Assembly: GCA_000233775.1 (NCBI GenBank)
Contig: CP003096.1
Coordinates: 186,001-250,000 of the forward strand
DNA: 64,000 bases
Direction: 5' to 3'
Origin: Thermovirga lienii DSM 17291
Lineage (GTDB): Bacteria; Synergistota; Synergistia; Synergistales; Thermovirgaceae
Position numbers and translations under genes: made by a program. The notes below the pieces were generated by a model. The model worked only from the letters and a program-made list of their open reading frames with translations, did not search any database and had not been told where the DNA came from. How positions within the stretch are numbered: position 1 is the first letter of the stretch; each line of letters begins with the position of its first letter. Positions 1 through 64,000 of this stretch are shown one piece after another.

Positions 1-978
1 TTTTGCTTCGACGTCTTCTTTTACCTTTAGGGGCATGGTTTCCTTGATGACCTTTCTCTGCTTGTCTTCCACCATGTCCCACAATGGAGCCTCTTCGTTT
101 GGTGCCGCAAGTTCGTTGATTTTTTGCTTCACCGGGGATATTACGTCCCCTGTTAAGCTCTCCAGTATATCGTGGAATAGAGATAGCAATACAGATTCAA
201 TATGGAATTTCCCGCTTTTGAATATCTCTAATTCATATATTGGAGCAAACATCTTTTCCTCGTATAAAGAATAGACTGCAGCCAAAAGGGTCACCACATA
301 GGTGTGGGCAAGGACGCTGCTTTCTAAGGTACGCTTGATTCGGTTCCATCGGATCAGGTATTTAAGGTTCCGCACGGTCAGGAAATATTCCTTGTGGCTT
401 TCGACTATTCTGTCGTATTCTTCATAATTTGGGATCTCGCTTATACTTTTTTGGATCTCTTTTTCCCGTGTAATGTAAGCACTCTCGTATACTTTTTTGT
501 TCGTAATGCATTCTTCCAGGGCGGCCTTTCTTTTGCAGTAATTGAAGAGGTTGTCTACGCGCTCAATGATTTCTGGCTCTTCACTGTCCAGACGAAGCTT
601 TGCTTTCATGTATGGCAAAAGTTCGTTACCAATAGGCCTTGGGAAGAGAGGTGCGATTTTATGTGCTGCTTCGTTTCTGAGGGTTTCGTAGTAATTTTCG
701 CCCCGCTTCTTGTCCTTAACTGGTATGTTCTCAAGGGATTCTATGGTGTGTCTTGGAATGTCCGATATTTCGAACTTGGTGAAAGACTGAAGCAGTGCAC
801 GCAAGATGAGGTGATCGATGAACTTGTCATTTTCGCCCATCTGGCGGGCTATCGCGTAACCCAGGTGGGCAACGTATGCTGCATTCTCTGCCTCGGTCCA
901 TGTCTCTATGCGGGGCAGGAAGTTCCATCGCTGCATGCTCATTAACCTTTTTAACGCTGAAATCAGGCTTCTTGCCAT
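1..978 (-). CDS. Tandem HD-domain protein, YfbR-like (3' end cut by window edge)
   Basis: An open frame of 326 codons runs from ATG at 978 to the window edge with no stop, so the C-terminus lies outside. An AAAGGGG ribosome site precedes the ATG. Residues about 215-290 resemble the HD nucleotidases of the YfbR type: a His in LAHT (about 225), an FHD doublet (about 269-270), then SLTGD and SPVK, the segment that in YfbR reads EVLTGD..TPVK. Residues about 15-80 look like a second copy of the same fold in which the His and HD ligands are lost (QSF in place of the HD doublet). YfbR enzymes remove the 5' phosphate from deoxynucleotides. Substrate and activity here are inference. The plus-strand open frames over this stretch are shadows. 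Confidence 0.7.
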   Translation of the reverse strand, partial: MARSLISALKRLMSMQRWNFLPRIETWTEAENAAYVAHLGYAIARQMGENDKFIDHLILRALLQSFTKFEISDIPRHTIESLENIPVKDKKRGENYYETLRNEAAHKIAPLFPRPIGNELLPYMKAKLRLDSEEPEIIERVDNLFNYCKRKAALEECITNKKVYESAYITREKEIQKSISEIPNYEEYDRIVESHKEYFLTVRNLKYLIRWNRIKRTLESSVLAHTYVVTLLAAVYSLYEEKMFAPIYELEIFKSGKFHIESVLLSLFHDILESLTGDVISPVKQKINELAAPNEEAPLWDMVEDKQRKVIKETMPLKVKEDVEAK

Positions 979-8351: not shown

Positions 8352-8469
8352 TCGCCACCCCTCTTGTTTTGCAAAAAATATATTAAAAAAATATTTTTTT
8401 GTAAAGCGTGTTATTGTTTTGTGTATAGGATTTGCTAAACTAAAAAAGTTAGTGGAGGGGGTGAAAGCT
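8352..8469. promoter_or_regulatory. Divergent promoter region between envelope cassette and Fe-S gene
   Basis: This AT-rich 118-bp gap separates two genes transcribed away from each other, so it must hold both promoters. It contains an imperfect inverted repeat, CAAAAAATAT with ATATTTTTTTG, around 8371-8400, and TTGTAA about 17 bases before TATAGG on the plus strand. These are candidates only; no regulator can be named. Confidence 0.35.
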
Positions 8470-10949: not shown

Positions 10950-13805
10950 ATGACCCAGCCCATTTTTAACCCTTCCTACGGGCCCATGAGAGTTTTGGGG
11001 TATGCCTCTGGCTCAGGAGCCACACTGTTTAGGGCATTAGAAATGCAGAAAAAGCTTGAGCAGACCGACGAAGGCAGCCCCTTCCAAATAGTTGGTTTGT
11101 TTTCTGACAACCCTGACTCCAAGGCCGTTCAGCTGGCAAAAGAACTGAACATACCTGTAAAGACCCTGGATATCAGGCAGTTTTATAAGGAACACAATGC
11201 GCCCATAAAAGACAGGGAGGTTCGAAAGCTTTTCGACCAAAAAGCCTTGGAGCTTTGGGAAGACTTAAAGCCCCACCTTATATTGCTTGCCGGTTATGTT
11301 TGGGCCACAACAGAAGAAATTTTGGATGCCCTTCCAGTGGTCAACGTTCACCCAGCGGACCTTTCTGTTCAGAAAGACGGCAAGAGAGCATATGCTGGAG
11401 CTGATGGAGTAGGCGATGCCCTAAGGGCGGGAGAAAAACAGCTTAGGTCCTCGTCCCACTTGGCTACAAGTGAACTGGATGGAGGTCCCATACTCGTTAT
11501 CTCTCCTCCTGTCGATGTGATTCCAGCCGCGGAAGAGATGAGCTTCGAAGATTATAGAAAATATCATCTGAAACTCGTTAATGAGCAATCTCGGATCGTC
11601 GGGGCCAGGACAGTCTATGAGATAGCAATGGGACATTTCCAACTGGACAGCCAGGGCAAAGTCCTTTACAGGGGTGAGTATGTTCCTTTGGGGCTTAGGT
11701 TCGAAAGTTGGGACGAAAATAAGCCCCTTCCAGAGCGACCCCTTGAACCTCTTTATTCTCCTAAGAGCATTGCAGTAATTGGGGCCTCACAGAAGCTTGG
11801 AATAGGAAGGGCAGTTTTGGAGAACATAAAGACCTATGGTTTCAAAGGAGACCTGTTCGCTGTAAACAGGTCAAAAGAAGATGTCTCGGGAGCAAAAGGC
11901 TATAAAAGCGTAAAGGAAATTCCAAAAGAGCTGGATCTAGCCATGATGTGCATTCCTTCTTCAAAGGTGCTTGACGCGGTTCAGGAATGTGCCGAAAAAG
12001 GTGTAAAGGCCATTGTAGGGATAGCCGCCGGCTTCAAGGAAGTGGGCGAAAAAGGCGCCCTTTCGGAGAAGAAGCTTATGGAGATAGTAAACAGGGCAAA
12101 CATGCGCTTTTTGGGTCCCAACTGCATGGGGCTTTTGAATACCGATCCTAAAGTTAAGCTCCATGCCAACATCCTGCAGGGGCTGCCAAAAGAAGGAGGA
12201 GTAGCCTTCGTAACCCAAAGCGGTGCGATAGGGGCTGCCCTTTTGGATTATGCAGAAGAGCTCGGTTTGGGTTTTTCCCAGATCTATTCCACGGGGAACC
12301 AGGCAGATATAAACATAAATGACCTGCTTCCCGTCCTGGAAAAAGACGAGAGCACCAAGGTAGTGCTGTGCTATATGGAAACTTTGCCTGAGCCTGCCAG
12401 GTTCAGGAAAAACGCCCTATCCCTTACAAGGAAGAAGCCGCTGATAGTTATAAGATCCGGCAAGACCGAGGCGGGCATGATTGCGGCACAAAGCCACACC
12501 GGAAGCCTTGCTGGGGACAGTGCCATGATAGAAGCCATGATAGAGCAGGTAGGGGCAATAACGGCAAAGAGTCTGGAGGAGGCTTTCCTTTTGGCGGCCG
12601 CCCTGGAGAGCATGCCCCTTCCTAAGGGAAAAAGGGTTGGGGTTATCTCCAACGCAGGAGGGCCCGGCACATTGGTGGCAGATGCCCTTGCTGAAAGAGG
12701 GTTTGCCCTGCCTTTCCTTCCGGAGGATGCCCGTGCCCGCCTGGCGGAGAAAGTCCTTCCCGAGGCTTCAACAGGAAATCCCATAGATTTAGTGGCTACA
12801 GCTAGACCAGAGCATTATGCCTTGGCAGCTAAAGAGATGGTCCGTTCAGGACTTTACGATGCCTTGGTGGTAATAGTGGTTCCTCCTGCGACGGTGGATA
12901 CAGGTGAGGTCGCCCGCGCCATGCTGCCATACATCAAGGAATTTAATGGCCCCGTACTGTCGTGCTTCTTTGGGCCCAACCTTGGCAGGGATGGCCGCAT
13001 GGTGTTTCAAAAAGAAGGCATACCCTCATTCCCATTTCCAGAACAGACGGCAGAGGTTCTTTCCAAGATGGCCAAGATGGAGACTAGCTGCTTTCACCAC
13101 CAAGCTTGGCCGGACGCCCAAAGGCCTTCTCTATCTGTCAGGAAAGACATAAGGCGCACTTTGGGCAAGAACAAAGGCTTTTTGCCTCCTTTGCAGCTTA
13201 GGGACCTGCTTAATGAATATGGGATAAAGACCGTACCAACTTGGGGTTTGAGCGAAATTGGCTCTTTGGAAGGGATTTACAAAGAAGGAACCTCTTATGT
13301 GCTGAAGGTGGACCACCCGGAAATAATTCACAAGAGCGAAAGCGGCGGAGTGGTGCTCGGGATAAAGACGCTGAGGGAGCTCGAAGAGTCCATCGGCTTG
13401 ATGAAGAAACGCCTCCCCGGAGCAAGGGACCTTTTGGTTCAGGAAATGGCTTCTGGTGAAATGGAGATAATCCTTGGTGCGGTTAAAAAAGGATCTCTTG
13501 GGCATGCCGTCATGATGGGCCTTGGAGGGGTGGCAGTGGAGGTACTGAAGGACACTGTCCTTTTGCCAGTTCCCTTCTCTCCGGCTGAGGCCCATATAGC
13601 GCTTAGAAAGCTAAAGGCATGGCGTCTTATTTCAGGATATCGCGGCAAAAAGGGAGCAGATGTGGAAGAAATAGTCCAATGGCTTGGCAGTTTGGCCCGA
13701 TTGGTTCAGGACTTTCCGGAATTAAGCGAACTGGATATAAACCCTGTCATAGTTACTCCAGAAGGGCTTGTCGCCGTTGATTGGAGAGCTAGCTGGGAAT
13801 TTTAG
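10950..13805 (+). CDS. PurN-like formyltransferase fused to ADP-forming acyl-CoA synthetase
   Basis: 951 residues with two unrelated parts. Residues about 10-240 are a folate-dependent formyltransferase domain. GYASGSGATL matches the loop of PurN, and all three catalytic residues are present: Asn132 and His134 in VNVHP and Asp177 in ELDGGP. Residues about 268-951 are a complete NDP-forming acyl-CoA synthetase: a CoA-binding Rossmann domain starting SPKSIAVIGAS, the ligase domain with the phospho-His loop QSHTGSLAGD (His516), and a C-terminal ATP-grasp domain (about 715-951). The synthetase normally turns acyl-CoA, ADP and phosphate into acid, CoA and ATP. The fusion suggests that a formyl or one-carbon acyl group is passed to CoA and then cashed for ATP; that is inference. 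It is the second gene of the GntR-led operon. Confidence 0.82.
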   Translation: MTQPIFNPSYGPMRVLGYASGSGATLFRALEMQKKLEQTDEGSPFQIVGLFSDNPDSKAVQLAKELNIPVKTLDIRQFYKEHNAPIKDREVRKLFDQKALELWEDLKPHLILLAGYVWATTEEILDALPVVNVHPADLSVQKDGKRAYAGADGVGDALRAGEKQLRSSSHLATSELDGGPILVISPPVDVIPAAEEMSFEDYRKYHLKLVNEQSRIVGARTVYEIAMGHFQLDSQGKVLYRGEYVPLGLRFESWDENKPLPERPLEPLYSPKSIAVIGASQKLGIGRAVLENIKTYGFKGDLFAVNRSKEDVSGAKGYKSVKEIPKELDLAMMCIPSSKVLDAVQECAEKGVKAIVGIAAGFKEVGEKGALSEKKLMEIVNRANMRFLGPNCMGLLNTDPKVKLHANILQGLPKEGGVAFVTQSGAIGAALLDYAEELGLGFSQIYSTGNQADININDLLPVLEKDESTKVVLCYMETLPEPARFRKNALSLTRKKPLIVIRSGKTEAGMIAAQSHTGSLAGDSAMIEAMIEQVGAITAKSLEEAFLLAAALESMPLPKGKRVGVISNAGGPGTLVADALAERGFALPFLPEDARARLAEKVLPEASTGNPIDLVATARPEHYALAAKEMVRSGLYDALVVIVVPPATVDTGEVARAMLPYIKEFNGPVLSCFFGPNLGRDGRMVFQKEGIPSFPFPEQTAEVLSKMAKMETSCFHHQAWPDAQRPSLSVRKDIRRTLGKNKGFLPPLQLRDLLNEYGIKTVPTWGLSEIGSLEGIYKEGTSYVLKVDHPEIIHKSESGGVVLGIKTLRELEESIGLMKKRLPGARDLLVQEMASGEMEIILGAVKKGSLGHAVMMGLGGVAVEVLKDTVLLPVPFSPAEAHIALRKLKAWRLISGYRGKKGADVEEIVQWLGSLARLVQDFPELSELDINPVIVTPEGLVAVDWRASWEF

Positions 13806-46290: not shown

Positions 46291-47508
46291 TTACCTTAAG
46301 CAGAACAAATATTGACTTTTCCCCGAAATATAGGCACAGTTACAAAAATATAGCATTCTGTAAGGGGCCACAAATTGCTTCCGTTTAATTAGTTGAAGGA
46401 GATGGTGGGAGTCCCAGGAGATGTTTTGAGCTCCCACCATTTTTAGTATAAAGGTGTTTACTTTGTCCAAGAGTATAGGGGGTATGGAAGTAGCGGCTTT
46501 AGAACTGACTAGTGAGAGTTCAAATATTTTTTCCTTTGGAGTTTTCCCGTTCATATCTCTGCCTCCATGAGATCGTTTTTGATTGTAATATTTTACCCAG
46601 CTTGCGGCAGAAGTCATAAAGACCTTTCGGGATGTTATGTGAGGTAGTGCAGGTATGTAGAATTCCTCATCATCGGTGCGATGACTTCGTTCCACAAAAC
46701 CTTGGGCTTCTTTTTCTCCTTTTGGTATGGAGAGGAGAGTAACGCCTAAGGGTTCTAGGAATTTTTCCTGCAATATTTTTCTTTTTCTGCTTTCTTCAGA
46801 TCCGCCGAATTCGCTCCCGTTGTCAGTTTGGAAGAACATTCTATGTCTGATGCCCAAAGCCCGCATGAGGAAGGCGATGTAAAGTATGAAGGAGAAGCCA
46901 TTTGCGAAAGAGCATTCATCGGAGAAGCATAAGATTCTCATTCTTGTTTTGATATCGATAGCGGTAAATTGGTATTTGGGAAGCCTGTATTTAAACAGGG
47001 CAGCATATGCTTTTGGTGGGAGAGTCTTTGCGTCTGCTATATGTTTTGAATCGATCTGGAAGTATTGTAGGGCTTCCCAGTGGTTTAGGTTGGCATAGTA
47101 GCGTTTATTTCCGTTTCTAGAACGTACTTTTTTAGTTTTAACGTTGTTTCTGCGTAAGATGTTTCTGATGGTGTAGGAAGATATATTCAGATTGAGGGTT
47201 CTTTTCAGCTCTCTTGCAAGTCTTCTAGGACCCATGTTGGTTTTCTGTTGAGTTTCAATAACCAAAGCTTCGATGTGAGGTTTAGTTCTTTTTGGATGAG
47301 GGGATCTGGGACCTTTTTTGTGCAATAATTCTTTGGCAGATAGGCCATCTTTTTTCCGTTTCATCAATGTTCTAACCCATCTTTCAGTAATTCCCATGAT
47401 GTTAGCTATTTCTTTGGCTGTTTTACCTTTTTCTATCAAGTCGCATATAACTTCCATAGGGGCTTTGGGATTCCCTGATTCCTTTAGTCGCTGGTATAAT
47501 GAAGTCAT
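46291..47508 (-). CDS. IS481-like transposase (integrase catalytic core), intact
   Basis: 405 residues. An N-terminal helix-turn-helix (KTAKEIANIMGITERWVRTL, about 32-51) and a second one (about 80-130) are followed by an integrase core with the first Asp in YFQIDSKHIAD (about 151), the second in FFQTDNGSEFGG (about 229) and the Glu in GFVERSHRTDDE (about 269). GGAGGTAACCCGCC precedes the ATG. The frame has no stop inside the element: after VAPY the last 22 residues are read from host DNA beyond the 46359 edge. Confidence 0.85.
   Translation of the reverse strand: MTSLYQRLKESGNPKAPMEVICDLIEKGKTAKEIANIMGITERWVRTLMKRKKDGLSAKELLHKKGPRSPHPKRTKPHIEALVIETQQKTNMGPRRLARELKRTLNLNISSYTIRNILRRNNVKTKKVRSRNGNKRYYANLNHWEALQYFQIDSKHIADAKTLPPKAYAALFKYRLPKYQFTAIDIKTRMRILCFSDECSFANGFSFILYIAFLMRALGIRHRMFFQTDNGSEFGGSEESRKRKILQEKFLEPLGVTLLSIPKGEKEAQGFVERSHRTDDEEFYIPALPHITSRKVFMTSAASWVKYYNQKRSHGGRDMNGKTPKEKIFELSLVSSKAATSIPPILLDKVNTFILKMVGAQNISWDSHHLLQLIKRKQFVAPYRMLYFCNCAYISGKSQYLFCLR
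46321..46344 (-). repeat. Solitary IS481-like terminus
   Basis: On the minus strand TGTAACTGTGCCTATATTTC aligns without gaps to the 5' terminus of the IS481-like copies, which begins TGTAGATGAGCCTATATTTC. It lies 14 bp outside the left edge of the complete copy at 46359. It is probably a remnant of an older insertion. Confidence 0.5.
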
Positions 47509-50076: not shown

Positions 50077-51355
50077 TGTAGATGAGCCTATATTTCGTTC
50101 CGTCTACTTTGGTAAAGTGAAAGAGATAATGGAAAAGGCGGGTACCTCTCCTTTATACTGGTGCTGCAACAACAACCAAAACAAAGGAAAAAGGAGGTAA
50201 CCCGCCATGACCTCATTATACCAGCGACTAAAGGAATCAGGAAATCCCAAAGCCCCTATGGAAGTTATATGCGACTTGATAGAAAAAGGTAAAACAGCCA
50301 AAGAAATAGCTAACATCATGGGAATTACTGAAAGATGGGTTAGAACATTGATGAAACGGAAAAAGATGGCCTATCTGCCAAAGAATTATTGCACAAAAAA
50401 GGTCCCAGATCCCCTCATCCAAAAAGAACTAAACCTCACATCGAAGCTTTGGTTATTGAAACTCAACAGAAAACCAACATGGGTCCTAGAAGACTTGCAA
50501 GAGAGCTGAAAAGAACCCTCAATCTGAATATATCTTCCTACACCATCAGAAACATCTTACGCAGAAACAACGTTAAAACTAAAAAAGTACGTTCTAGAAA
50601 CGGAAATAAACGCTACTATGCCAACCTAAACCACTGGGAAGCCCTACAATACTTCCAGATCGATTCAAAACATATAGCAGACGCAAAGACTCTCCCACCA
50701 AAAGCATATGCTGCCCTGTTTAAATACAGGCTTCCCAAATACCAATTTACCGCTATCGATATCAAAACAAGAATGAGAATCTTATGCTTCTCCGATGAAT
50801 GCTCTTTCGCAAATGGCTTCTCCTTCATACTTTACCTCGCCTTCCTCATGCGGGCTTTGGGCATCAGACATAGAATGTTCTTCCAAACTGACAACGGGAG
50901 CGAATTCGGCGGATCTGAAGAAAGCAGAAAAAGAAAAATATTGCAGGAAAAATTCCTAGAACCCTTAGGCGTTACTCTCCTCTCCATACCAAAAGGAGAA
51001 AAAGAAGCCCAAGGTTTTGTGGAACGAAGTCATCGCACCGATGATGAGGAATTCTACATACCTGCACTACCTCACATAACATCCCGAAAGGTCTTTATGA
51101 CTTCTGCCGCAAGCTGGGTAAAATATTACAATCAAAAACGATCTCATGGAGGCAGAGATATGAACGGGAAAACTCCAAAGGAAAAAATATTTGAACTCTC
51201 ACTAGTCAGTTCTAAAGCCGCTACTTCCATACCCCCTATACTCTTGGACAAAGTAAACACCTTTATACTAAAAATGGTGGGAGCTCAAAACATCTCCTGG
51301 GACTCCCACCATCTCCTTCAACTAATTAAACGGAAGCAATTTGTGGCCCCTTACA
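50077..51355 (+). mobile_element. IS481-like insertion sequence, copy 2, inside IS110 copy B
   Basis: Starts TGTAGATGAGCC at 50077 and ends GGCCCCTTACA at 51355. Almost identical to copy 1 (46359-47638) in the reverse orientation. The near identity implies recent transposition between the two sites, about 4 kb apart. Confidence 0.82.
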
Positions 51356-51399
51356 CATTTTCTGCATTTTTTAAAATTTCTTTCTCCATTGCCTTGTAG
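50207..51399 (+). pseudogene. IS481-like transposase with a one-base frameshift
   Basis: Same protein as copy 1, but the A run near 50360 (CGG followed by A's then GATGG) has five A's where copy 1 has six. The frame from ATG at 50207 therefore ends at 50509, while the remaining 336 residues are open from about 50389 in the next frame. All three catalytic acids are in the second frame. As in copy 1 there is no stop before the element end; 14 host-derived residues follow VAPY. Slippage on the A run might restore some protein, but a simple mutation is more likely. Confidence 0.85.
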
Positions 51400-54076: not shown

Positions 54077-55183
54077 ATGAATCCATCAGTTGTTGTTATT
54101 ACTACGGGGACAAGTGTCCTAAGGGACGGAGCCTCAGAAGAAGAGAGGAAAATTTTGAACAGAACGGCCAACAAAAAAGAGTCCGACTTATCCCCAGAGG
54201 AAAAAAGCATCATTGACGGTATAGCAAAACGCCAAGGTACTCTTTTGCTTCAATGTTCAATCGAAGAGGCCAGGAATATGAGTGCAGAGTTAAACGGAGT
54301 TTTAGGGTTATATCGTTCGTCTCCGGAAGAAGGGAAAAATAACATCCATTTTCTGCTGAGGAGTGACACATATCAAGGTGCTAAGGCCGCTGAAATTATA
54401 AGTGAATGGATGCATCATAAAGGGCTTAATACTCAGTCCGAAAACTTTCCTGGTCTCAATACATCCAGCATAGCAGATTTCACTTCGGCCATGTCGGATT
54501 TAGTTAAGTGGTGCGATCAAATTCTGCCTGGTTACTCCAGAAAAGGATACAGGGTGGTTTTCTGTCTGGTCGGAGGGTTTAAAAGTTTCCAGGGTTTTAT
54601 GCAAGCCTTGGGCATGTTTTACGCTGATGAAAGTGTGTATATTTATGAGAACTCAGATGAACTATTACGCTTGCCTAGATTACCAGTGGATTTGGAAAGT
54701 TCTTTTGCCTCGGTGATAAAGAAGAAGCATCATATTGTTAGGAGAATGCTTTATAAGGATATTCCTGTCTCGGAGTGTGAGGGTATTCCCGAAATCATGT
54801 TATTGGAAGTTGATGGTTTTTGTTCTCTGTCTCCTTGGGGAGATCTGATATTCAATAAATTCAAAGAAAAATATTATTCCTCAGAGATACTGTTACCACC
54901 TCCATCTGCAAAGATAAAGATAAAAGAAAAAGCTTTAGAGCATATTTCAAAAGATGCGGCTCGCGTTAGGGATTTCAACGAAAGGTTGGATGACCTAGCC
55001 AGGTTTTTGGAAACTCAACAAAACATAAAGAGGCTTGATTTCAAGAAGCTAAAGGGTAATCCCATACCTCCATGCACTCACGAGGCAGATTTGAGTGCAG
55101 ATAAAGGGGCGTGGCGCATATTTGGGTATTTCGAGGACGAATGTTTTGTTATACATCACGTGGGAGAGTCTGATCTTCACTAA
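54077..55183 (+). CDS. CARF protein with RelE-like C-terminal domain (Cami1-like)
   Basis: 368 residues; GAGGTG precedes the ATG. Residues 1-210 form a CARF domain of the APE2256/TIGR02619 type: ITTGTSVLRDG (about 8-18) and VGGFKSFQGFMQ (165-176), the two loops that bind cyclic oligoadenylate. After a helical linker, residues about 300-368 (RLDFKKLKGN, THEADLS, AWRIFGYFEDECFVIHHVG) follow the strand pattern of RelE/HigB mRNA interferases. A CARF-RelE protein, Cami1, is known to cut ribosome-bound mRNA on cOA signalling. No HEPN motif is present, and no csm6 is seen elsewhere in the window. The gene heads the type III-A operon. CARF is sure; RelE is probable. Confidence 0.72.
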   Translation: MNPSVVVITTGTSVLRDGASEEERKILNRTANKKESDLSPEEKSIIDGIAKRQGTLLLQCSIEEARNMSAELNGVLGLYRSSPEEGKNNIHFLLRSDTYQGAKAAEIISEWMHHKGLNTQSENFPGLNTSSIADFTSAMSDLVKWCDQILPGYSRKGYRVVFCLVGGFKSFQGFMQALGMFYADESVYIYENSDELLRLPRLPVDLESSFASVIKKKHHIVRRMLYKDIPVSECEGIPEIMLLEVDGFCSLSPWGDLIFNKFKEKYYSSEILLPPPSAKIKIKEKALEHISKDAARVRDFNERLDDLARFLETQQNIKRLDFKKLKGNPIPPCTHEADLSADKGAWRIFGYFEDECFVIHHVGESDLH

Positions 55184-55200
55184 AAATTACCAGACATAAA

Positions 55201-55245
55201 CCCCTTAAATTGTCCCCTTTGGGTGTTTTACTTGTGTTAAGGGGG
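55201..55245 (+). promoter_or_regulatory. Inverted repeat covering the ribosome site of the WYL gene
   Basis: CCCCTTAA (55201-55208) and TTAAGGGG (55237-55244) are exact complements 28 bases apart. The second arm is the AAGGGGG ribosome site of the gene at 55254. It could hide the site in mRNA or act as an operator for the WYL regulator itself. Confidence 0.45.
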
Positions 55246-55253
55246 TGTTTTTG

Positions 55254-56273
55254 ATGCCTAAGGACAGTTCATCCGTAAGGCTCAGCAGGCTTTTAAACCT
55301 AATAAAGGACTTTATAACTAAAGAGTCTATCAATAGGGAAGATCTTTACTTGAAACATGGCTACACGAGCAAAAAAACCCTGCAGAGAGACTTAAATTTT
55401 CTAAGATATGAGTTGGATGTCCAAATTGTCTATGACCGTAGGAGCAGAACATATAGACTTGCCGACTGTGGCCCTGGTTTCATGGTTAAATCTCCTCTTT
55501 CAGAAATGGAAACTTTAGCGCTGCTAGTGGGGACAAAGCTTTCAGGACACTTTTTGCCCTTCCTTTCTGAATCTACCAAGGAACTTATATCCAAGCTTAA
55601 AAAACTTATGCCAGAGAGCAGTCGTTTTCAGGCTGATACCCTATCAGAGGCAATAATACTAGCCAATCCTGTCTCTAGAATAGACGGTAGTATTTTCAAA
55701 AAAGTGGTGGACGCAATACATGCAAAAAAAGTGATAAAGACTCAATACCGGTCGCCATACGAATTGCCAGAGCCTCAGGAGAGAGTGCATCATATCTCTC
55801 CTTGGTTTTTGTATTTTAAACACAAGGCCTGGTATGTATGGGGTAAGAGTGACCAATACGACAAAAGCGGTTCTTTTAGGATAAGTCGTTTTCGTTATGC
55901 CCAGATACGGGATGATATGAAATATGAAGAACCCCCCGAAAACATCAGGATAGAAGATTTGATCCATTCAGAAAACCCTTTTTGTGATGATGCTTACAAC
56001 CTCAAACTAAAAATCAAAGAGCCTTTTGCTACTTCCGTAAAAGACATGCTCAACTTGTATCCCCAGCAGAAAATCACAAAAGAACAAGATGGAACAGTAG
56101 TTTTCTCAGCGAAGGTGCGGAATCTGGAGGAAGTGAGCAGATGGGTCCTTTCTTCCGCTGATTGTGTGGAGATTCTAGAACCTCAAGAACTGAAAGAAAT
56201 AGTCAAGCGGAAGGCGACTACAATACTAAAAACATTGGTTAGCAGGGGTGAGCAAAAATGTATAGAAGGATAA
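55254..56273 (+). CDS. WYL-domain transcriptional regulator of the CRISPR operon
   Basis: 339 residues from ATG at 55254, nine bases after AAGGGGG. An N-terminal DeoR-like helix-turn-helix (about 8-65: RLLNLIKDFITK, TSKKTLQRDLNFLR) is followed by the WYL domain (about 140-240: SPWFLYFKHKAWYVWGKSD, FRISRFRYAQI) and the WCX extension (about 250-335). WYL proteins bind nucleic-acid-like ligands and often control defence loci. The stop overlaps the start of the second CARF gene by 16 bases, so it is embedded in the operon. Confidence 0.88.
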   Translation: MPKDSSSVRLSRLLNLIKDFITKESINREDLYLKHGYTSKKTLQRDLNFLRYELDVQIVYDRRSRTYRLADCGPGFMVKSPLSEMETLALLVGTKLSGHFLPFLSESTKELISKLKKLMPESSRFQADTLSEAIILANPVSRIDGSIFKKVVDAIHAKKVIKTQYRSPYELPEPQERVHHISPWFLYFKHKAWYVWGKSDQYDKSGSFRISRFRYAQIRDDMKYEEPPENIRIEDLIHSENPFCDDAYNLKLKIKEPFATSVKDMLNLYPQQKITKEQDGTVVFSAKVRNLEEVSRWVLSSADCVEILEPQELKEIVKRKATTILKTLVSRGEQKCIEG

Positions 56274-57328
56274 TAACTACCGTAGGGACATCGCTTTTGA
56301 CTAATAGAGACAGGCCGTGGGCAGGCTGGAGGCCCCAGACCAAATGCGATCTTCCTGATCCTAGGGAAGTAAGGGAATGGCTTAGCAATGTAGATCCAGC
56401 TTTAGCTAGCGCTGAGACAAACACATTGAGGGCCATGGATGTTTCTGAGCAAGATGAGCTGGTCTTTTTGCATTCTAACACTGAGGAGGGCACGTTTTGT
56501 GCTGCGCGCCTAGCTGAGTATTACGAAAAGATTGCAGCGAGGACTACCATGGAAAAAATAGAACAACTCGGCTATAGCGCATCAAATTTCGATAGGGGAC
56601 TTAAGTGTCTTATAGATATTGTGGTAAAGCACGTTAAAGATAGCAGAAACAGGGGGCAGATCCCAATTATTTGTGCAACTGGAGGGTTCAAGGCCGAGAT
56701 AGCATTCATGAACTTAATTGGTGCTTTGATGGAAGTAGAAGTTTTTTACATGCATGAACTTCACAAGGAGGTTGTCAGGTTACCCGTCTTGCCCCTTGCA
56801 TGGGATGTGGCTTTCGTGGAGGCGAACAAGGAATTTTTCACTTGGGTGGAAGAAGAACCACGTTCCAGTTCAGAGGTTGAAAGTTGGTTGAAGAAGGAAC
56901 CTAAATTGCGACCTCTCGTGGAGGATGCGGATGATGGTTGCACATATCTAACTAGTGCAGGGCACATGCTTTATAAGGTTGCCATGGAGAAAATTCAGGC
57001 AGGCCCTAGAGCCACATGGCCTCCTTCAGATCCTAGGCATCCAAAAGAGAAGAATAAAGTCTCCGCCACGGAGCATCATAGGCCTAGAGGATGGGAGCGG
57101 TTTGTGGATGCTCTTTGTGAGATAGACTGCGTGAGTATGGTGCGTTATGAGAACACCAACTGGAGTGGCCCGAAGGTTAAAATTTTGAATCCTGAAAAGG
57201 GGGAGATATGCGTCAGATACACTAAAGATAATTTGAGTTTGCCGCTTTTTGTATCAACAACCGCTCGAGGAATGGAACAGACGCAGTTGGTGGCTGATTA
57301 CATTTCAAAAAAGGTTTCAAAATATTGA
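56258..57328 (+). CDS. Second CARF protein with unassigned C-terminal domain
   Basis: 356 residues. The CARF domain (about 1-205) has ITTVGTSLLTNRDRP (about 6-20) and ATGGFKAEIAF (140-150), matching the first CARF protein. A middle winged-helix-like part follows (about 220-255). The C-terminal about 80 residues (GWERFVDALCEIDCV, GPKVKILNP, EICVRYTKD, LPLFVSTTARGMEQTQ) do not show HEPN (RxxxxH), PIN or nuclease motifs that I can identify. It may be an effector, a ring nuclease that degrades cOA, or a CARF-linked toxin of RelE-like fold; I cannot decide. It ends 23 bases before the cas10 ATG. Confidence 0.7.
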   Translation: MYRRIITTVGTSLLTNRDRPWAGWRPQTKCDLPDPREVREWLSNVDPALASAETNTLRAMDVSEQDELVFLHSNTEEGTFCAARLAEYYEKIAARTTMEKIEQLGYSASNFDRGLKCLIDIVVKHVKDSRNRGQIPIICATGGFKAEIAFMNLIGALMEVEVFYMHELHKEVVRLPVLPLAWDVAFVEANKEFFTWVEEEPRSSSEVESWLKKEPKLRPLVEDADDGCTYLTSAGHMLYKVAMEKIQAGPRATWPPSDPRHPKEKNKVSATEHHRPRGWERFVDALCEIDCVSMVRYENTNWSGPKVKILNPEKGEICVRYTKDNLSLPLFVSTTARGMEQTQLVADYISKKVSKY

Positions 57329-57351
57329 CAAAACTGAGGGGAGGGACGTCT

Positions 57352-58827
57352 ATGATTGAAGAGGAGAGAAGAGATTTTTTGCATGACCTGGCTATAGGGG
57401 GACTGCTGCACGACATAGGAAAAGTGGTTCAAAGGGCCAAGGGAATACGTAAAAATCATATGGAAGTAGGAGGTGAATGGCTCACCGAACTAGGACCACC
57501 GTGGGAAAAGTACGCATGGGCGGCATTTTACCACCATACCGACTATAAAGCGGCTACAGCCTTGAAAGATTTGGAGGATGCAGGCAAAGCTGTTGGGGCG
57601 GCAATTATAGCCCACGCGGACAACCTATCCGCATCGGAGCGGGAGGATGTTACAGGGAAATGGGATAAAGACGTGCCGTTGAGGAACATTTTCGACATGG
57701 TTCACTTAGAAGGCTGTGAAGAGAAGAGCTCTGCGCAGACCTATTTCCCTGTTGTCCCGCTTGATGACAGGGGGCTGATAATGCCCATAAGTAAAGATAG
57801 CAGGTCTAAAGAATTTAACTACGAATCCCTTGAAGAGGGATTGAAGGGTGCTTTGAAAGGAAGTTTTGGTGGCCCTACGTGGCTTTTAAGGGTTCTTGAG
57901 AGGTATACGGCTTTTGTGCCAAGTGATACAGCTATTGGTGAAGATCGTACCCCGGATATTTCTTTGTACGACCACTTGAGGACCACCGCAATGATAGCTG
58001 TCTGCATTGGGGATTTTGTGATAGCGGACCGCCCTCGACTTTTGCAAGAAAAGGACCCAATGGAATGCTACAAGGCCTTAGAGCGAGAACTTAAACGTGA
58101 CGGCGTTTCTCCTTTCTTGATGGTCGAAGGAGATATCAGAGGAATCCAAAAGTATATCTACGACATAAGTGGTAAGAAGGCTTTGAGGAGTCTCAGGGCG
58201 AGGTCGTTCTATTTGGAGGCGCTCCTGGAGTGTGTCCTTTGTGATCTGCTGGAGGTCCTAGGAATGCCAAGGACCCAGGTCCTCTTTGTAGGAGGGGGAC
58301 ACTGGGTTTTGCTATTACCCAACACCGAGAAGATAAAGGTTCAGTTAGAAGATTTCAAACGTTCACTCAATCGGAAACTTTATAGCTCAGAGGATGGCAA
58401 GCTTAGCATGTCTTTGACATGGGTGCCTTTTGGTTGGGAAGAGCTGAAGGAATTCAAGATGGACCGCGTCTTCAAACGGATGGCGCTTAAATTGGGCAAA
58501 GAAAGGTGCCGCCCTATGGAAGGGTTGTTGGAGGAGATATTGGGAGACCAAAAGGACGATTACTTAAGTAAAAGCTGCATCATCTGCGGAAGGAGAACCG
58601 ATGAATTGAAAAGTCTAGATCCAGAAGATGAAGAAGGTTCAGCGTGTGAAAAGTGTTTTTCTCTTACGAAGTTAGGCAAGGCAATTTCAGATAAAGCAGT
58701 CAAGTATTTATACAGTGAGCCTTTTTCCGAAGGTATCGTAGATATATTGGGTGTTCCTTACAGCATTGCAAAAAAAGCAAAAGATATACCCCAGGAAGCC
58801 AAAGTAGTGTCCATTATGATGGTGTAA
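57352..58827 (+). CDS. Cas10 N-terminal fragment (HD, first palm, zinc ribbon)
   Basis: 491 residues. ATG at 57352 follows GGGGAGGGACG. The last 8 codons before the stop at 58827 are read from the IS256 left end, giving the tail VVSIMMV after the native QEA. It contains the HD motif and the first, degenerate palm but not GGDD. It could still be translated and might keep HD activity. Confidence 0.85.
   Translation: MIEEERRDFLHDLAIGGLLHDIGKVVQRAKGIRKNHMEVGGEWLTELGPPWEKYAWAAFYHHTDYKAATALKDLEDAGKAVGAAIIAHADNLSASEREDVTGKWDKDVPLRNIFDMVHLEGCEEKSSAQTYFPVVPLDDRGLIMPISKDSRSKEFNYESLEEGLKGALKGSFGGPTWLLRVLERYTAFVPSDTAIGEDRTPDISLYDHLRTTAMIAVCIGDFVIADRPRLLQEKDPMECYKALERELKRDGVSPFLMVEGDIRGIQKYIYDISGKKALRSLRARSFYLEALLECVLCDLLEVLGMPRTQVLFVGGGHWVLLLPNTEKIKVQLEDFKRSLNRKLYSSEDGKLSMSLTWVPFGWEELKEFKMDRVFKRMALKLGKERCRPMEGLLEEILGDQKDDYLSKSCIICGRRTDELKSLDPEDEEGSACEKCFSLTKLGKAISDKAVKYLYSEPFSEGIVDILGVPYSIAKKAKDIPQEAKVVSIMMV
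58795..58802 (+). repeat. Target-site duplication, left copy
   Basis: GAAGCCAA, identical to 60199-60206 on the other side of the IS256 element. Eight base pairs is the usual duplication length for this family. Confidence 0.95.
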
Positions 58828-60198
58828 AATTGATGGCTTGAAGCAGGAGAGCCACCCCTCCCTCTGGTAGATAAGAAGTAGCTTAATCTTAATCATCAGG
58901 AGGGAGAAAAGATGGCTCACTACCAGGTTACCGTAGACTGTGATCTCTTGCAAGGATTATTTATTCGGGATGATGGATTGGCTCGGTTGGTGGAGAACAT
59001 CGTGAATCAGATACTCGATGCTCAGGCTACCGAACAACTCAGGGCCAAGCCATACGAACGTACCGAAGAGCGGCAGGGGTACCGCAACGGGTATCGGGAT
59101 AAGCTGCTCAAGTCTCGCGTAGGAGAACTTACGCTTATGGTTCCCCGTCTCCGGAGCGGGCACTTCTCCACGGAGCTTTTCGAGCGGTACCAGCGGAGCG
59201 AGCAGGCGCTCTTGCTGGCCATGGTCGAGATGGTCGTGAACGGCGTATCCACCAGGAAGGTAAGGGCGGTTGTTGATGAACTATGCGGCACGGAGTTCTC
59301 CAAATCCACCGTATCCAGCCTGTGCAAAAGACTGGACGACATCGTAAAGGAGTGGAACGAGCGAGATTTGAGCAGCCAGGAATACCCATTTCTCCTGGTA
59401 GATGCCATTGTCATCCGGGTGCGTAAAGGCGGCCGGGTACGGCTTTCAAGCGTACTTCTCGCTACAGGGATCAACCGGGAGGGATACCGGGAGATTTTAG
59501 GGCTTATGCTCGGGGATAGCGAATCAGAGGCTGCTTGGTCGGAGTTCTTCGGCCGGCTCAAGGAGCGCGGTCTCAAGGGAGTGGACTTGGTTGTTTCGGA
59601 TGATCACAAGGGCTTGATCAATGCGATAGAAACCCACTTCCAAGGAGCGACATGGCAGCGGTGCCAGACCCACTTTATCCGGAACATCCTGGACGCCTGT
59701 CCTAAGAGCCTCCAGGGCGACCTGCACGGGCGACTGCGGTTGATCTTCGACGCGCCGGATATGGAGACGGCCAGGCGGTTGCTGAACGAAACGATAGAGG
59801 CCTTTGGCGCCCGGGCGCCAAAGGCGGTAGAGCGACTTGAAGCTGGTTTCGAGGACGCAATGGCGGTGATGGCACTACCAGGGCGCTACCGGAAGCGGCT
59901 GCGCACCACCAATGGAGTCGAGCGGCTCAACCAGGAGATCCGCCGGCGGGAGCGGGTGATCCGAATCTTCCCTAACGAGGAGTCGGCTGTGAGACTGATC
60001 GGAGCAGTGCTTGTAGAGATCGACGAGGTGTGGACCACAGGAAAGCGCTACTTTGATATGGCAGAGTATTGGGAGTGGAAGGCTAACACAGAAAAACAGC
60101 AGAAGGAGGTGAATAATGCCGATACCCAGGTAAATGTAGCTTAAAACGGGGTGATCTTATCTGCCAGAGGGAATTTACACACAAATTTGGACTTGACC
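58803..60198 (+). mobile_element. IS256-family insertion sequence, copy 2, inside cas10
   Basis: 1396 bp between the two GAAGCCAA copies. The left end AGTAGTGTCCATTATGATGG and the reversed right end GGTCAAGTCCAAATTTGTG share the GTCCA and GTGTAAA blocks. A further subterminal inverted match, CCCTCTGGYAGATAAGA, lies near 58860 and 60170. The element is visibly richer in GC than the surrounding cas genes and than IS256 copy 1. Confidence 0.95.
58912..60144 (+). CDS. IS256-family transposase, intact
   Basis: 410 residues of the mutator type, about the same layout as copy 1: YERTEERQGYRNGYRDK, first Asp in LLVDAIVIRVRKGG, second in DLVVSDDHKGL, WQRCQTHFIRN, and Glu in TTNGVERLNQEIRRRERVIRIFPN. 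CAGGAGGGAG precedes the ATG. No internal stop or frameshift is present, so the element is probably still mobile. GC-rich codons (CGG, GCC, ATC) set it apart from its neighbours, pointing to arrival from another genome. Confidence 0.95.
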   Translation: MAHYQVTVDCDLLQGLFIRDDGLARLVENIVNQILDAQATEQLRAKPYERTEERQGYRNGYRDKLLKSRVGELTLMVPRLRSGHFSTELFERYQRSEQALLLAMVEMVVNGVSTRKVRAVVDELCGTEFSKSTVSSLCKRLDDIVKEWNERDLSSQEYPFLLVDAIVIRVRKGGRVRLSSVLLATGINREGYREILGLMLGDSESEAAWSEFFGRLKERGLKGVDLVVSDDHKGLINAIETHFQGATWQRCQTHFIRNILDACPKSLQGDLHGRLRLIFDAPDMETARRLLNETIEAFGARAPKAVERLEAGFEDAMAVMALPGRYRKRLRTTNGVERLNQEIRRRERVIRIFPNEESAVRLIGAVLVEIDEVWTTGKRYFDMAEYWEWKANTEKQQKEVNNADTQVNVA

Positions 60199-61170
60199 GA
60201 AGCCAACAGAGTTTTTGTGTTAAAAGAACCCCACAACAAACTCCAAGAGGAGGATGAAAGGTTCATCTCCCTGCCATGGGCTGGCTATGCATGGGATGAT
60301 GAAATAGAAAAGGTTTGTGATGACGGTTGTATAGGAACCCACAAAGTTGGCGCTCTTAGAATGGACGTGGACAACTTGGGCAAGATATTCGCTGAAGGGC
60401 TTCCTAAGGAAAAATACAGCTTATCCAGAATAGCCACCATGTCGAGGCTTTTAACGCAATTTTTCAAAGTATATATACCAGTTATCGTTCGAAATCCCAA
60501 GCTTCGTTTGGCAAAGGAACTCTTCGAAGGCTCACAGGATGCCCACAGAAGGTTAATAGTGGTTTATTCAGGAGGTGACGATCTTTACGTTGTTGGCGCG
60601 TGGAACGAAGTTATAGAGTTTGCCGTCGATGTAGTGAAATGTTTCCGCGAGTTTACTGGAGATAACCCTTCGGTGACCATCTCTGGAGGAATGGTGATGG
60701 CAGGGGAGACCACCCCCATGTATATGCTTGCAGAGATGGCGGGCGCTGCTGAAAAAAGCGCCAAAGAACACCAATGTGGGGAGGTAAAAAAAGACAGCCT
60801 TGCTTTGTTCTATTCAGGAGATCTGGATGCTCAAGGAGTTTTCGACAAAAAATTCAATACCCGTATAGAGCTTGATGCTTTGATCCATAGGATGAAATCT
60901 TTCCTTGAAAAAGCGAAATTCAAAAAAGACGAGAAAAAGGTGGAGTTGAAAGTGGAAAGGGCCTTCCTTCGTAAGATAATGGCCCTGCAAGAAATGGAAC
61001 GGGAAGGAAAACCTCTTTGGAGGGCCCATGCGGCTTACGCCGCAGGTCGCAGCAGAGAAGATAAAGATCCCATTGCGGGGGAGTTTTTTTCCGAGATGGA
61101 ATCGGCAGAAAAAGATGCTTTGAGGGTTGCCAGTGTGTGTGCCGAATGGTTGGATTACATGATTCGATAA
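60151..61170 (+). CDS. Cas10 C-terminal fragment (GGDD palm and domain 4)
   Basis: 339 residues if started at GTG 60151 inside the IS256 right end, after GGGG. The first 16 residues are element-derived; native Cas10 sequence resumes at EANRVFVLKE. It carries GALRMDVDNLGKIF and YSGGDDLYVVG (GGDD at 141-144) plus the C-terminal helical domain. Whether this piece is made depends on transcription out of the element and on the weak start. Confidence 0.75.
   Translation: MILSARGNLHTNLDLTEANRVFVLKEPHNKLQEEDERFISLPWAGYAWDDEIEKVCDDGCIGTHKVGALRMDVDNLGKIFAEGLPKEKYSLSRIATMSRLLTQFFKVYIPVIVRNPKLRLAKELFEGSQDAHRRLIVVYSGGDDLYVVGAWNEVIEFAVDVVKCFREFTGDNPSVTISGGMVMAGETTPMYMLAEMAGAAEKSAKEHQCGEVKKDSLALFYSGDLDAQGVFDKKFNTRIELDALIHRMKSFLEKAKFKKDEKKVELKVERAFLRKIMALQEMEREGKPLWRAHAAYAAGRSREDKDPIAGEFFSEMESAEKDALRVASVCAEWLDYMIR
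60199..60206 (+). repeat. Target-site duplication, right copy
   Basis: GAAGCCAA, identical to 58795-58802. Joining 58802 directly to 60207 keeps the cas10 reading frame (GAA GCC AAC). Confidence 0.95.
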
Positions 61171-61183
61171 GGGGGTGCAAGAA

Positions 61184-61651
61184 ATGGAAAGGGGAAAAAA
61201 CGACAATAGGAATAACCAATTGAACGGAAAAATAGAAAGATTAAAAAAAGAAATAATTGAATTAATGAGTAGTGAAAAAACTGATTATTCCAGGTTGGTT
61301 AGCATAGGAAAAGAAGTAGCACAGGAAATAAAAAAACTGAGCTCTAACCAGCTTCGCAAATTTCATGCTTACATAGTTCGGTTTGCGATGATGTACGAAA
61401 TACAGAAAAAATGCGGTGATAGAGATAGTAATGAAAGCTTTCAAAAAATACAACTTTTAAGATACCACTTGCACTATGCTGCTAAAAAAGTACAAAGTAG
61501 CAAGAGTGACGCCAAAAATTTGGCTGCTCTTTTAGGTGCTGCTGTTGAAAAAGTAAAACAACCTGAAGATTTATTACGATTAAAGTATCTTTCTGAAGCA
61601 ATAGTTGCTTACCATAAGTCATATAAATCAAATGAAGATAATGGGGAATAA
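61184..61651 (+). CDS. csm2: Csm2, small subunit of the type III-A complex
   Basis: 155 residues from ATG at 61184 with AAGGGGGTG upstream. All-helical; the family stretch ELIKKLSSNQLRKFHAYIVRF is seen here as IKKLSSNQLRKFHAY (about 47-61), and the C-terminal YLSEAIVAYHKSYK is the usual end. Several Csm2 copies line the complex and hold the target RNA. The gene starts 13 bases after the cas10 stop. Confidence 0.9.
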   Translation: MERGKNDNRNNQLNGKIERLKKEIIELMSSEKTDYSRLVSIGKEVAQEIKKLSSNQLRKFHAYIVRFAMMYEIQKKCGDRDSNESFQKIQLLRYHLHYAAKKVQSSKSDAKNLAALLGAAVEKVKQPEDLLRLKYLSEAIVAYHKSYKSNEDNGE

Positions 61652-61691
61652 TATTAAGAGATGTTTGGTTTATCAAGGGGAGGTTTTTCAA

Positions 61692-62474
61692 ATGGAAGAA
61701 AAAAAGAATAAACCCATAAATAAACCCATAAAAGGTAAGGTTATATTGTCAGGAGAAATAGTATGCAAAACAGGTCTCCACATAGGAGCTTCTGATGCTG
61801 GGCTTTCTATAGGCGGAATGGATAACCCTGTCATAAGAGATCCATTGACTAAGACACCTTATATACCTGGAAGTTCTTTGAAGGGTAAGTTGCGTTCCCT
61901 TTTAGAAAGGGCCATGGACAAGGAGTTTGATAAAAAGGGAGGGTCAGGTAAATCAGTTATATATAGGCATGAATGTTCTAAAGCGAGTTGTAAAGTCTGT
62001 AGATTATTTGGTTCCAGTTCAAAGGACAATGGGAATATTCCATCAAGGCTCCACGTGAGAGATGCTTTTCTCTCAGAGACAAGCATAAATGAGCTTTCAG
62101 AACTTGAGGAAGGCTTACCTTATACTGAATGGAAGGAAGAAAACAGCCTTGACAGGATAACCTGTGCAGCAAACCCTCGGTCTATAGAACGGGTTCCAGC
62201 AGGGGCGGTTTTCGAATTCGAAATAGTATATACGATTGAGAAAGAAGAAGATCTAAAGGATGACCTTAACAACTTGCAGGCTGTGCTGAAGCTATTGGAG
62301 GATGACGCACTAGGAGGCGGCGGTAGCAGGGGAAACGGCAGAGTCAAAATAGAGATAAAAGACGTTTTGGTCAGGAAAAAGGAACATTACCTTGAAGGAA
62401 AAGATGAGATCAAGGTCGAATTGGGCGGGGACGACCTTGGAACTTCTGTGGAAAAAGTTTACAGGGGGTCATAA
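61692..62474 (+). CDS. csm3: Csm3, Cas7-like target-RNA nuclease
   Basis: 260 residues from ATG at 61692 with AAGGGGAGG upstream; earlier starts would overlap csm2. The RAMP fold has GLHIGASDAGLSIGGMDNPVIRD with the catalytic Asp in GGMDNP (about 44), YIPGSSLKGKLRS and the Gly-rich loop GGGGSRGNGRVK near 217-228. Csm3 forms the backbone and cuts target RNA every six bases. It is also carries four Cys (HECSKASCKVC) that may bind zinc. It ends on the first base of csm4. Confidence 0.93.
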   Translation: MEEKKNKPINKPIKGKVILSGEIVCKTGLHIGASDAGLSIGGMDNPVIRDPLTKTPYIPGSSLKGKLRSLLERAMDKEFDKKGGSGKSVIYRHECSKASCKVCRLFGSSSKDNGNIPSRLHVRDAFLSETSINELSELEEGLPYTEWKEENSLDRITCAANPRSIERVPAGAVFEFEIVYTIEKEEDLKDDLNNLQAVLKLLEDDALGGGGSRGNGRVKIEIKDVLVRKKEHYLEGKDEIKVELGGDDLGTSVEKVYRGS

Positions 62475-63400
62475 TGTTGAAGCCTTTGGTCTTTCATCTT
62501 CGCTTCAAAAGCGGGATAAGACAGGGAACCCTTGCCGGCGATGTGAATCGCCAGGCGGGATTTATCGGCGGTTCTACCGTTTGGGGAGGGGTAGGTTGGG
62601 CTTCTGCTCAGCTAAATGGTCCTGAGATTACCGAACGCTTGGTCAGAACCTGCCGCCTGTCTTCTCTGCTTTGGAAGCGAGATGATTGTTATTATGTCCC
62701 TGCTCCTGTTTTCCCCGTCGCAGGAAAGGGAATCGATGACAGAAAGAAACTGAAAAAGGTTCAGTGGGTGCCTGTTGACGAACTAAACCATTTTGTTGCT
62801 GAAAAGATCAATTCCAATCTGGGCGACAGGTTTTTTACGGAGGAAACGGTAGTTTCCGCAGCCTTGGACAGAGTTAGCAAAGCTGCTGTTCCTTATTACA
62901 AAAGACGATTAAAGGTGGCAGAAGGTGTTGTTGGTGTCTTGGTGGCGGAATGCCCAGAAGACATGGTAGCTGCTTTTAAAGGAGCTATTAGACTACTTGG
63001 AGATACAGGGCTAGGTGGTGAAAGGAGCACCGGTTGGGGTGTTTTCGATGTGGAAGAAGTATCGGCTGCAGAAACCCCTTTCGGGGATCTTTTGCAGAAG
63101 GAAGGCAAAAGGTACATGACTCTTGGGGCCTTTTTGCCCAAACCGGAAGAATTAAATTTATTAGAAAAAGAGAGGGAGTACACAGGGTACAATTTGTGGA
63201 GATTTAGAGGTTATGTGGGAGAAACTGACGTTATAAAACCTACAGTGGTATGTCTATCTCACGGTTCTCTCCTTCCTTTCAAGCCTGTTGGGAAAGTAAT
63301 AGATATAACCCCCTCCAGGATGGAACATCCGGTGCTTTTCAACGGTTGCCCGCCATCTTTGGCCGTGGATTTGCCTAAGTTGGAGGAGGTGGAAGAATGA
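62474..63400 (+). CDS. csm4: Csm4, Cas5-like subunit
   Basis: 308 residues. LVFHLRFKSGIRQG at the N-terminus and the RAMP glycine-rich loop LGDTGLGGERSTGWGVFDV (about 176-194) identify Csm4. It binds the 5' handle of the crRNA and anchors Cas10 to the complex. The ATG overlaps the csm3 stop, and the stop overlaps csm5 by four bases. Confidence 0.92.
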   Translation: MLKPLVFHLRFKSGIRQGTLAGDVNRQAGFIGGSTVWGGVGWASAQLNGPEITERLVRTCRLSSLLWKRDDCYYVPAPVFPVAGKGIDDRKKLKKVQWVPVDELNHFVAEKINSNLGDRFFTEETVVSAALDRVSKAAVPYYKRRLKVAEGVVGVLVAECPEDMVAAFKGAIRLLGDTGLGGERSTGWGVFDVEEVSAAETPFGDLLQKEGKRYMTLGAFLPKPEELNLLEKEREYTGYNLWRFRGYVGETDVIKPTVVCLSHGSLLPFKPVGKVIDITPSRMEHPVLFNGCPPSLAVDLPKLEEVEE

Positions 63401-64000
63401 GCGAAAATAAGTTGCCGTGGAAGATAAAAAAATACAAAGCAAGGTTTGTGGCTCTTTCTCCAATACATATAGGAACAGGAGAGGTTCTTCCTGCATGCAG
63501 ATACGTATTGCCACCGGAGGGTCAAGATCAAGGCTGGTGCCTCAAAGAGTCCTTTTCAGCGGGGCTATTGGCTGAAGGCAGAATTTCGATCAAAGATTAC
63601 ATGGAGAAGCCTCTTTCCCTCGATATGCCCATTTTAAAGAGGGGGGTTGACGATGGGAACTTTCTTTACCCCATATCTTTTACTAAGGCAGCAAGAGAAA
63701 AGCTTAAAAAGGAAGTTAAACCTTTCGTAAGAGATGGCTTCGGGAGGGCTTACCTGCCGGGATCATCAATTAAGGGGATGCTGAGAACGGCTTTGGCGTT
63801 TTCTTTTTTGATGAATGAGGAACAGGCAAGGAAAAACTTACTTAAACAGCTTGACCAGCTCGAACCAAAAGGGCTTATAGAAAAAATGAATAATGTGAGT
63901 CCCAAGAATATAAAGGAAATACGAAAGAAAAATGCTGCTAGAGTTTCTCTTGTGGAGAACCTCTTTCGGCCTCTAGAAAAAGAAAAAACTGATCCCAAGT
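63397..64000 (+). CDS. csm5: Csm5, Cas7-like subunit (3' end outside window)
   Basis: The first 201 codons are present. The N-terminus KARFVALSPIHIGTGEVLPACRYV and the YLPGSSIKGMLRTALAFSF motif (about 124-142) are typical of Csm5, which caps the complex and helps crRNA maturation. ATG at 63397 overlaps the csm4 stop. Later genes (csm6, cas6, cas1/cas2) or an array, if any, lie beyond the window. Confidence 0.9.
   Translation, partial: MSENKLPWKIKKYKARFVALSPIHIGTGEVLPACRYVLPPEGQDQGWCLKESFSAGLLAEGRISIKDYMEKPLSLDMPILKRGVDDGNFLYPISFTKAAREKLKKEVKPFVRDGFGRAYLPGSSIKGMLRTALAFSFLMNEEQARKNLLKQLDQLEPKGLIEKMNNVSPKNIKEIRKKNAARVSLVENLFRPLEKEKTDPK

Follow-up and report, generated by a model that had tools for sequence, protein, structure and literature searches.

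A CARF-RelE protein from the SyCsm6 clade, encoded first in a transposon-interrupted type III-A CRISPR operon of Thermovirga lienii

What kind of effector stands at the head of the type III-A CRISPR operon of Thermovirga lienii DSM 17291, and is the pathway that would trigger it still intact in this strain? The window analyzed here is a stretch of 64,000 nucleotides (contig CP003096.1, positions 186,001 to 250,000, forward strand). A preliminary description had assigned one of its genes to a Cami1-like CARF-RelE effector, by which the locus was thought to use translation arrest instead of Csm6. The features discussed in the following are collected in Table 1, where positions refer to the window unless another stretch is named.

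Table 1. Features of the T. lienii type III-A locus within the window
Feature	Position	Strand	Basis and remarks
CARF-wHTH-RelE effector gene	54077..55183	+	368 aa, ATG start 54077, stop 55183, frame intact; PADLOC PDLC01934, Pfam Cas_APE2256, AlphaFold2 model, top PDB match Cami1
CARF sensor domain, aa 1-205	54077..54691	+	ring-nuclease residues S13, E71, K169
winged-helix linker domain, aa ~206-268	54692..54880	+	model; aligned with Cami1 and Sis0811
RelE/BECR-fold domain, aa 277-368	54905..55180	+	YafQ fold match; conservation in 63 sequences
WYL/WCX-domain transcription regulator	55245..56273	+	Pfam WCX 1.6e-13, WYL 1.2e-08; homolog adjoins CARF-RelE in L037
second CARF protein, CARF7--CARF_DUF2103	56258..57328	+	PADLOC PDLC01931 E 1.3e-164; overlaps both neighbours
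cas10/csm1, 5' part (HD, first palm/Csm1_B, zinc finger)	57325..58802	+	TIGR02578 E 7.4e-95; Pfam HD, Csm1_B
insertion sequence in cas10, 1,396 bp	58803..60198	+	transposase ORF 58912-60144; ends from comparing copies
cas10, 3' part (second palm, GGDD cyclase motif)	60199..61170	+	Pfam Cas10-Cmr2_palm2 E 1.2e-33
csm2	61175..61651	+	Pfam Csm2_III-A E 7.3e-28
csm3	61605..62474	+	PADLOC Csm3 E 8.5e-77; ORF as listed, true start probably downstream of 61605
csm4	62474..63400	+	Pfam Csm4_C E 8e-19; PADLOC Csm4 7.8e-39
csm5, start only	63397..64000	+	PADLOC Csm5 E 1.5e-35; runs past window end (L014:398-1564)

The protein is of a known kind, in which a cyclic-oligoadenylate (cOA) sensor is joined to an mRNA-cutting domain of RelE type. 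PADLOC model CARF7--CARF_RelE (PDLC01934), from which it shows no notable difference, matches residues 3-366 (E 2.1e-126; model positions 2-358/359), and a CARF7-type CARF domain is indicated both by the PADLOC CARF7 models and by Pfam (Cas_APE2256, residues 66-202, E 2.6e-31). The sequence GAGGTG lies a short way ahead of the start codon; promoter-like sites upstream of the gene do not exceed the count expected by chance. In a scan that took a single genome for each species, 169 loci were confirmed, from which 80 relatives with 34-45% identity (best segment) were kept. Given these relatives and the uninterrupted frame, the ORF lies far beyond chance. Phage records contain no homolog of the protein.

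Several details of the preliminary description could be located in the translation: the CARF loops TGTS and GGFK occupy residues 10-13 and 166-169, the C-terminal strand pattern AWRIFGYFEDECFVIHHVG spans residues 345-363, and, as had been stated, a motif search revealed no Rx4-6H (HEPN) motif anywhere in the 368 residues. Along with the BECR fold of the C-terminus described below, the missing Rx4-6H motif argues against a Csm6/Csx1 (CARF-HEPN) identity. In a search for HEPN/Csm6 proteins elsewhere in the genome, one CARF-HEPN model matched only the CARF region of the second CARF gene. A stand-alone toxin-antitoxin pair was likewise rejected because no antitoxin adjoins the gene, the downstream neighbour encoding a 342-aa WYL regulator and the upstream gene being divergent.

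The proposed position as first gene of a type III-A operon is in good agreement with the gene order. On the same strand, the run reads CARF-RelE, WYL, CARF-DUF2103, cas10, csm2, csm3, csm4, csm5, a 225-aa ORF, cas6, cas1, cas2, cas2 and, at the operon end, a CRISPR array of 24 repeats; the WYL, second CARF and cas10 genes overlap by a few bases. A cas10 with HD and GGDD motifs, although interrupted by an insertion sequence, together with csm2-csm5 assigns the locus to type III-A. The 225-aa ORF between csm5 and cas6 (L014:1564-2238) has no PADLOC match and reveals a RAMP-like glycine-rich end (GFGSERERGFGS).

Association with type III genes extends to the relatives, at least 52 of the 80 adjoining such genes (40 of the 57 located on stretches of at least 10 kb), compared with 0 in the reversed-sequence control. 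The nearest relative locus and best match of the scan (44% identity) is situated on a Thermotogaceae MAG contig, L037, where WYL, CARF-RelE and a III-A cas10 are contiguous (L037:1-3425) and cas10 is uninterrupted and open to the contig end. No second CARF gene lies between CARF-RelE and cas10 on this contig.

The sensor domain retains all ring-nuclease residues. Our family alignment is composed of 63 full-length sequences, the T. lienii protein included; S13 and K169 are present in 63/63, and E71 is invariant too. S13 and K169 are equivalent to S12 and K169 of Sis0811, while S13/E71/K169 correspond to S12/E70/K167 of SyCsm6, in which the exchange K167A abolished cOA cleavage (PMC9676260). For the T. 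lienii protein, cOA cleavage is predicted from these residues. In the structure model, the adjoining winged-helix linker consists of helices 206-216, 218-223 and 231-234, a hairpin (242-251) and a helix (253-266). The Crn1-type ring nucleases Sis0811 and Sso1393 (7pq2, 3qyf) have the same CARF and wHTH domains and the S12/K169 pair, but lack a RelE domain. Departures of the T. lienii protein from its family are C163 (Asn in 62/63), T10 (Cys in 60/63), S340 (Trp in 57/63) and H360.

The nature of the C-terminus was addressed with an AlphaFold2 model of the 368-aa protein, built from the 63 sequences (pLDDT 94.7, pTM 0.86). Among PDB entries, Foldseek ranks Cami1 highest, first in its cA4-bound form on the 70S ribosome (E 5.3e-16) and then as the apo protein (8phj/8phb); Crn1-type ring nucleases come next. 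VIA-align superimposes the model on Cami1 with Z 20.6 and 326 residues aligned over 4..368; the rmsd of 6.0 indicates that the domains are placed differently. Residues 277..368 match the RelE-superfamily toxin YafQ (9lew_B) with Z 9.9 and an rmsd of 2.7 over 84/90 residues. The second CARF protein of the operon, modelled and searched identically, served as control; in the refined alignment it matches Cami1 only over 3..251, and thus a CARF match does not by itself bring about the RelE match. The full-length PADLOC model, the AlphaFold2 model and the fold matches to Cami1 and YafQ therefore bear out the CARF domain with RelE-type C-terminus claimed before. The outcome that would have contradicted this claim, a predicted C-terminus with a fold foreign to RelE, did not occur.

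Sequence profiles give a different picture. Pfam RelE-clan models match neither the full protein nor its C-terminus alone, so that the RelE profile search suggested for the protein failed to detect the domain. C-termini of single relatives produce weak Pfam matches to YafQ (E 0.17) or Gp49 (E 0.0065), NCBIfam MAG6450 stays below its cut-off on the C-terminus (E 0.0028), and a C-terminal profile finds chance-level matches only among PDB sequences. By hhalign, the C-terminus matches YafQ weakly (16%, E 0.0016) and shows no profile match to the RelE domain of Cami1 (0.1%), whereas the predicted and solved structures do match. Hence, the RelE assignment rests on the predicted structure and the PADLOC family label, and the C-terminal RelE/BECR fold is supported by the modelled structure, not by sequence profile.

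Conservation within the domain centers on N301, D305, L307, K323, L325, G327, T334-H335-E336 and R347. Over the 63 sequences, R347 occurs in 63/63, N301, D305 and L307 are invariant or nearly so, T334, H335 and E336 are found in 59-61, and position 323 is Lys in 50. The model places H335 and E336 on a strand of the RelE sheet (residues 335-338), and the strand that follows (346-353) carries R347. RelE, YoeB and HigB have their catalytic residues at these positions; we infer a catalytic role of H335, E336 and R347 in the T. lienii protein. The domain ends shortly past its last strand and lacks the Arg/Tyr residues active at the C-terminus of E. coli RelE. YafQ/RelE toxins have the BECR fold in common with residues 277-368, but are stand-alone proteins with protein antitoxins and display other conserved residues.

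The T-H-E...R set differs from those of both YafQ and Cami1, and the BECR fold also occurs in MqsR, which is classed as ribosome-independent, and in the gyrase-binding ParE (PMC11980606). Both points would suit a domain directed at free RNA, tRNA or, as in ParE, gyrase rather than the ribosomal A-site. We regard such another target as improbable, since the closest folds, Cami1 and YafQ, are both ribosome-dependent and the conserved His/Glu/Arg fits an RNase, not ParE.

With the same domain order and a full-length fold match, the protein might be assigned to the Cami1 clade proper, including the same docking at the ribosomal stalk. The tree, built on the CARF-wHTH part only, makes this highly improbable: the T. 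lienii protein and SyCsm6 (L013_SyCsm6) fall into a clade of 47 rows, separate from the Cami1 clade, each clade with support 100/99 and the two divided by branches of approximately 1.9 changes per site; deep branch order is not firm (85/72). Pairwise comparison points in the same direction, identity to SyCsm6 being 38% from end to end, RelE domain included, while similarity to AvCami1 (26%) ends at residue 263. The Chromatiales genome L172 encodes a protein differing in one residue from crystallised AvCami1, so that the comparison is with Cami1 itself. AvCami1 (Allochromatium vinosum; PDB 8phb, 8phj) agrees with the T. lienii protein in its CARF-wHTH-RelE order and is likened to it by the CARF motifs TCGTS and GGFK. 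In contrast, it carries HTRDRY...GWRLLVWR and a C-terminal tail, whereas the T. lienii family has THExDAW...AxRIFGHF and terminates soon after the last strand, and the two RelE domains are not alignable by profile. "Cami1-like" therefore holds for fold and domain order, but not for the clade, nor for the RelE sequence profile.

Consequently, we place the protein among the CARF7 CARF-RelE proteins of the SyCsm6 clade, with a build like that of Cami1. SyCsm6 (Sll7062, a CARF7-RelE protein encoded on pSYSA of Synechocystis sp. PCC 6803) has the same ring-nuclease residues and the same THE...R motif. The loci differ: SyCsm6 belongs to a type III-D locus with Csx1 next door, the T. lienii protein to a III-A locus with WYL, CARF-DUF2103 and an interrupted cas10.

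Taking together the domain architecture, the fold of the model, the conserved residues, the setting in the operon and the transposon, we consider it likely that the protein is a CARF-wHTH-RelE ancillary effector of the SyCsm6 clade, which would serve the III-A system as a ribosomal mRNA cutter and is probably untriggered here. For its ligand, ribosome dependence and mRNA cleavage, we infer the following course. Upon target RNA binding, Cas10 would produce cyclic oligoadenylate, probably cA4, to be bound by the CARF dimer. Binding would free or position the C-terminal RelE domain, which would then cut mRNA in the ribosomal A-site and stop translation, and the CARF domain would slowly cut the messenger as a ring nuclease and thereby reset the protein.

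Published work on the two branches differs in reach. Activated by cA4, Cami1 cleaves mRNA at the A-site of the ribosome (PMC11229360), and it has ring-nuclease activity (PMC12409355, PMC12830947). SyCsm6 is apparently dimeric and degrades both cA4 and cA6, a reaction most likely carried out by the CARF domain. It left total RNA uncut in vitro with no ribosomes present; its authors proposed ribosome-dependent cleavage without proof (PMC9676260). In the literature searched, ribosome action was shown only for the Cami1 branch, no toxic activity was demonstrated for the SyCsm6 branch, and no report describes SyCsm6 assayed with ribosomes. Translation arrest instead of Csm6 is thus not supported as it was written: it is conjectural for the SyCsm6 clade, SyCsm6 having shown no RNase activity where ribosomes were lacking.

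The behaviour of SyCsm6, the nearest studied relative, would also be consistent with a protein that acts mainly as a ring nuclease, i.e., as an off-switch, the RelE domain being inert or structural and the CARF-DUF2103 protein or the Cas10 HD nuclease being the real effector. Along this line, a Synergistota relative has lost RelE and kept CARF-wHTH, and a second CARF protein is encoded in the same operon. We nevertheless hold this explanation to be rather unlikely, because H335, E336 and R347 are conserved in 63 proteins from many phyla, which is unexpected for an inert domain, and because the SyCsm6 assay used total RNA, on which a strictly ribosome-dependent enzyme would be silent too. The Synergistota relative originates from Fretibacterium (L020:8400-9799); it ends after CARF-wHTH, and a CRISPR-repeat-like array starts at the expected RelE position.

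The CARF-DUF2103 protein is a possible second effector of the operon. With this CARF protein of another type (CARF7-DUF2103) and a WYL regulator encoded alongside, the CARF-RelE protein is not the operon's sole effector candidate. The C-terminal domain of the CARF-DUF2103 protein (aa ~260-356) is unrelated to that of the CARF-RelE protein and possibly represents an uncharacterised effector; this domain gave no Pfam match, and no PDB fold match when the model of the whole protein was searched. It contains the motif HHRPxGWERxVxxLCxxDCVS, common to a protein from a Schekmanbacteria III-B locus, L112. This locus holds a CARF-RelE of the SyCsm6 clade together with a 53%-identical CARF-DUF2103 (11263-12321 and 8001-9071), and thus the pairing of both protein types recurs in a distant phylum.

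Triggering of the CARF-RelE effector would require a functional Cas10, and in T. lienii cas10 is split. Neither this interruption nor the second CARF protein figured in the preliminary description. Copies of the inserted element, compared with one another, show that 8 bp of target sequence were duplicated (GAAGCCAA, 58795-58802 and 60199-60206), and the flanks joined without the element form a single 813-aa frame with HD and GGDD motifs. The genome contains 14 full-length, near-identical copies of this insertion sequence, one of which splits cas1 of the same CRISPR locus (L014, around 3676-5070, minus strand; 8-bp duplication CAAAACAA). The element in cas10 is a recently moved transposon, and the interruption suggests a loss of Cas10 function in the strain. 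A search of the genome for another Cas10 found none, the four weak matches all lying below the family cut-off; we assume these to be GGDEF-type domains. With cas10 split and no other Cas10 found, the strain probably makes no cOA signal, and its cA4 arm is probably silent. For the same reason, the translation-arrest arm is probably not triggered, and the CARF-RelE effector probably stands ready without its trigger in a pathway that has been disabled.

Among the arms of type III immunity that do not depend on HEPN domains, CARF-RelE proteins are a main one. The SyCsm6 clade is present in many phyla. Tentatively, and with more doubt than confidence, we raise the possibility that it forms a second class of CARF-RelE effectors distinct from Cami1, in which the active site is of a separate type (T-H-E...R) and the ribosome is probably reached by a different route. 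If true, type III systems would have two kinds of RelE-fold toxin at their disposal, each built differently. Due to its high-confidence fold, the T. lienii protein would be a practical test object for the SyCsm6 branch, and the strain provides a natural type III locus that combines an intact toxin effector with a transposon-split signal synthase. The region 5' of the CARF-RelE gene is rich in mobile elements; an integrase-type transposase is present there in two almost identical copies (46291-47508 and 50207-51399), one of them split into two frames.
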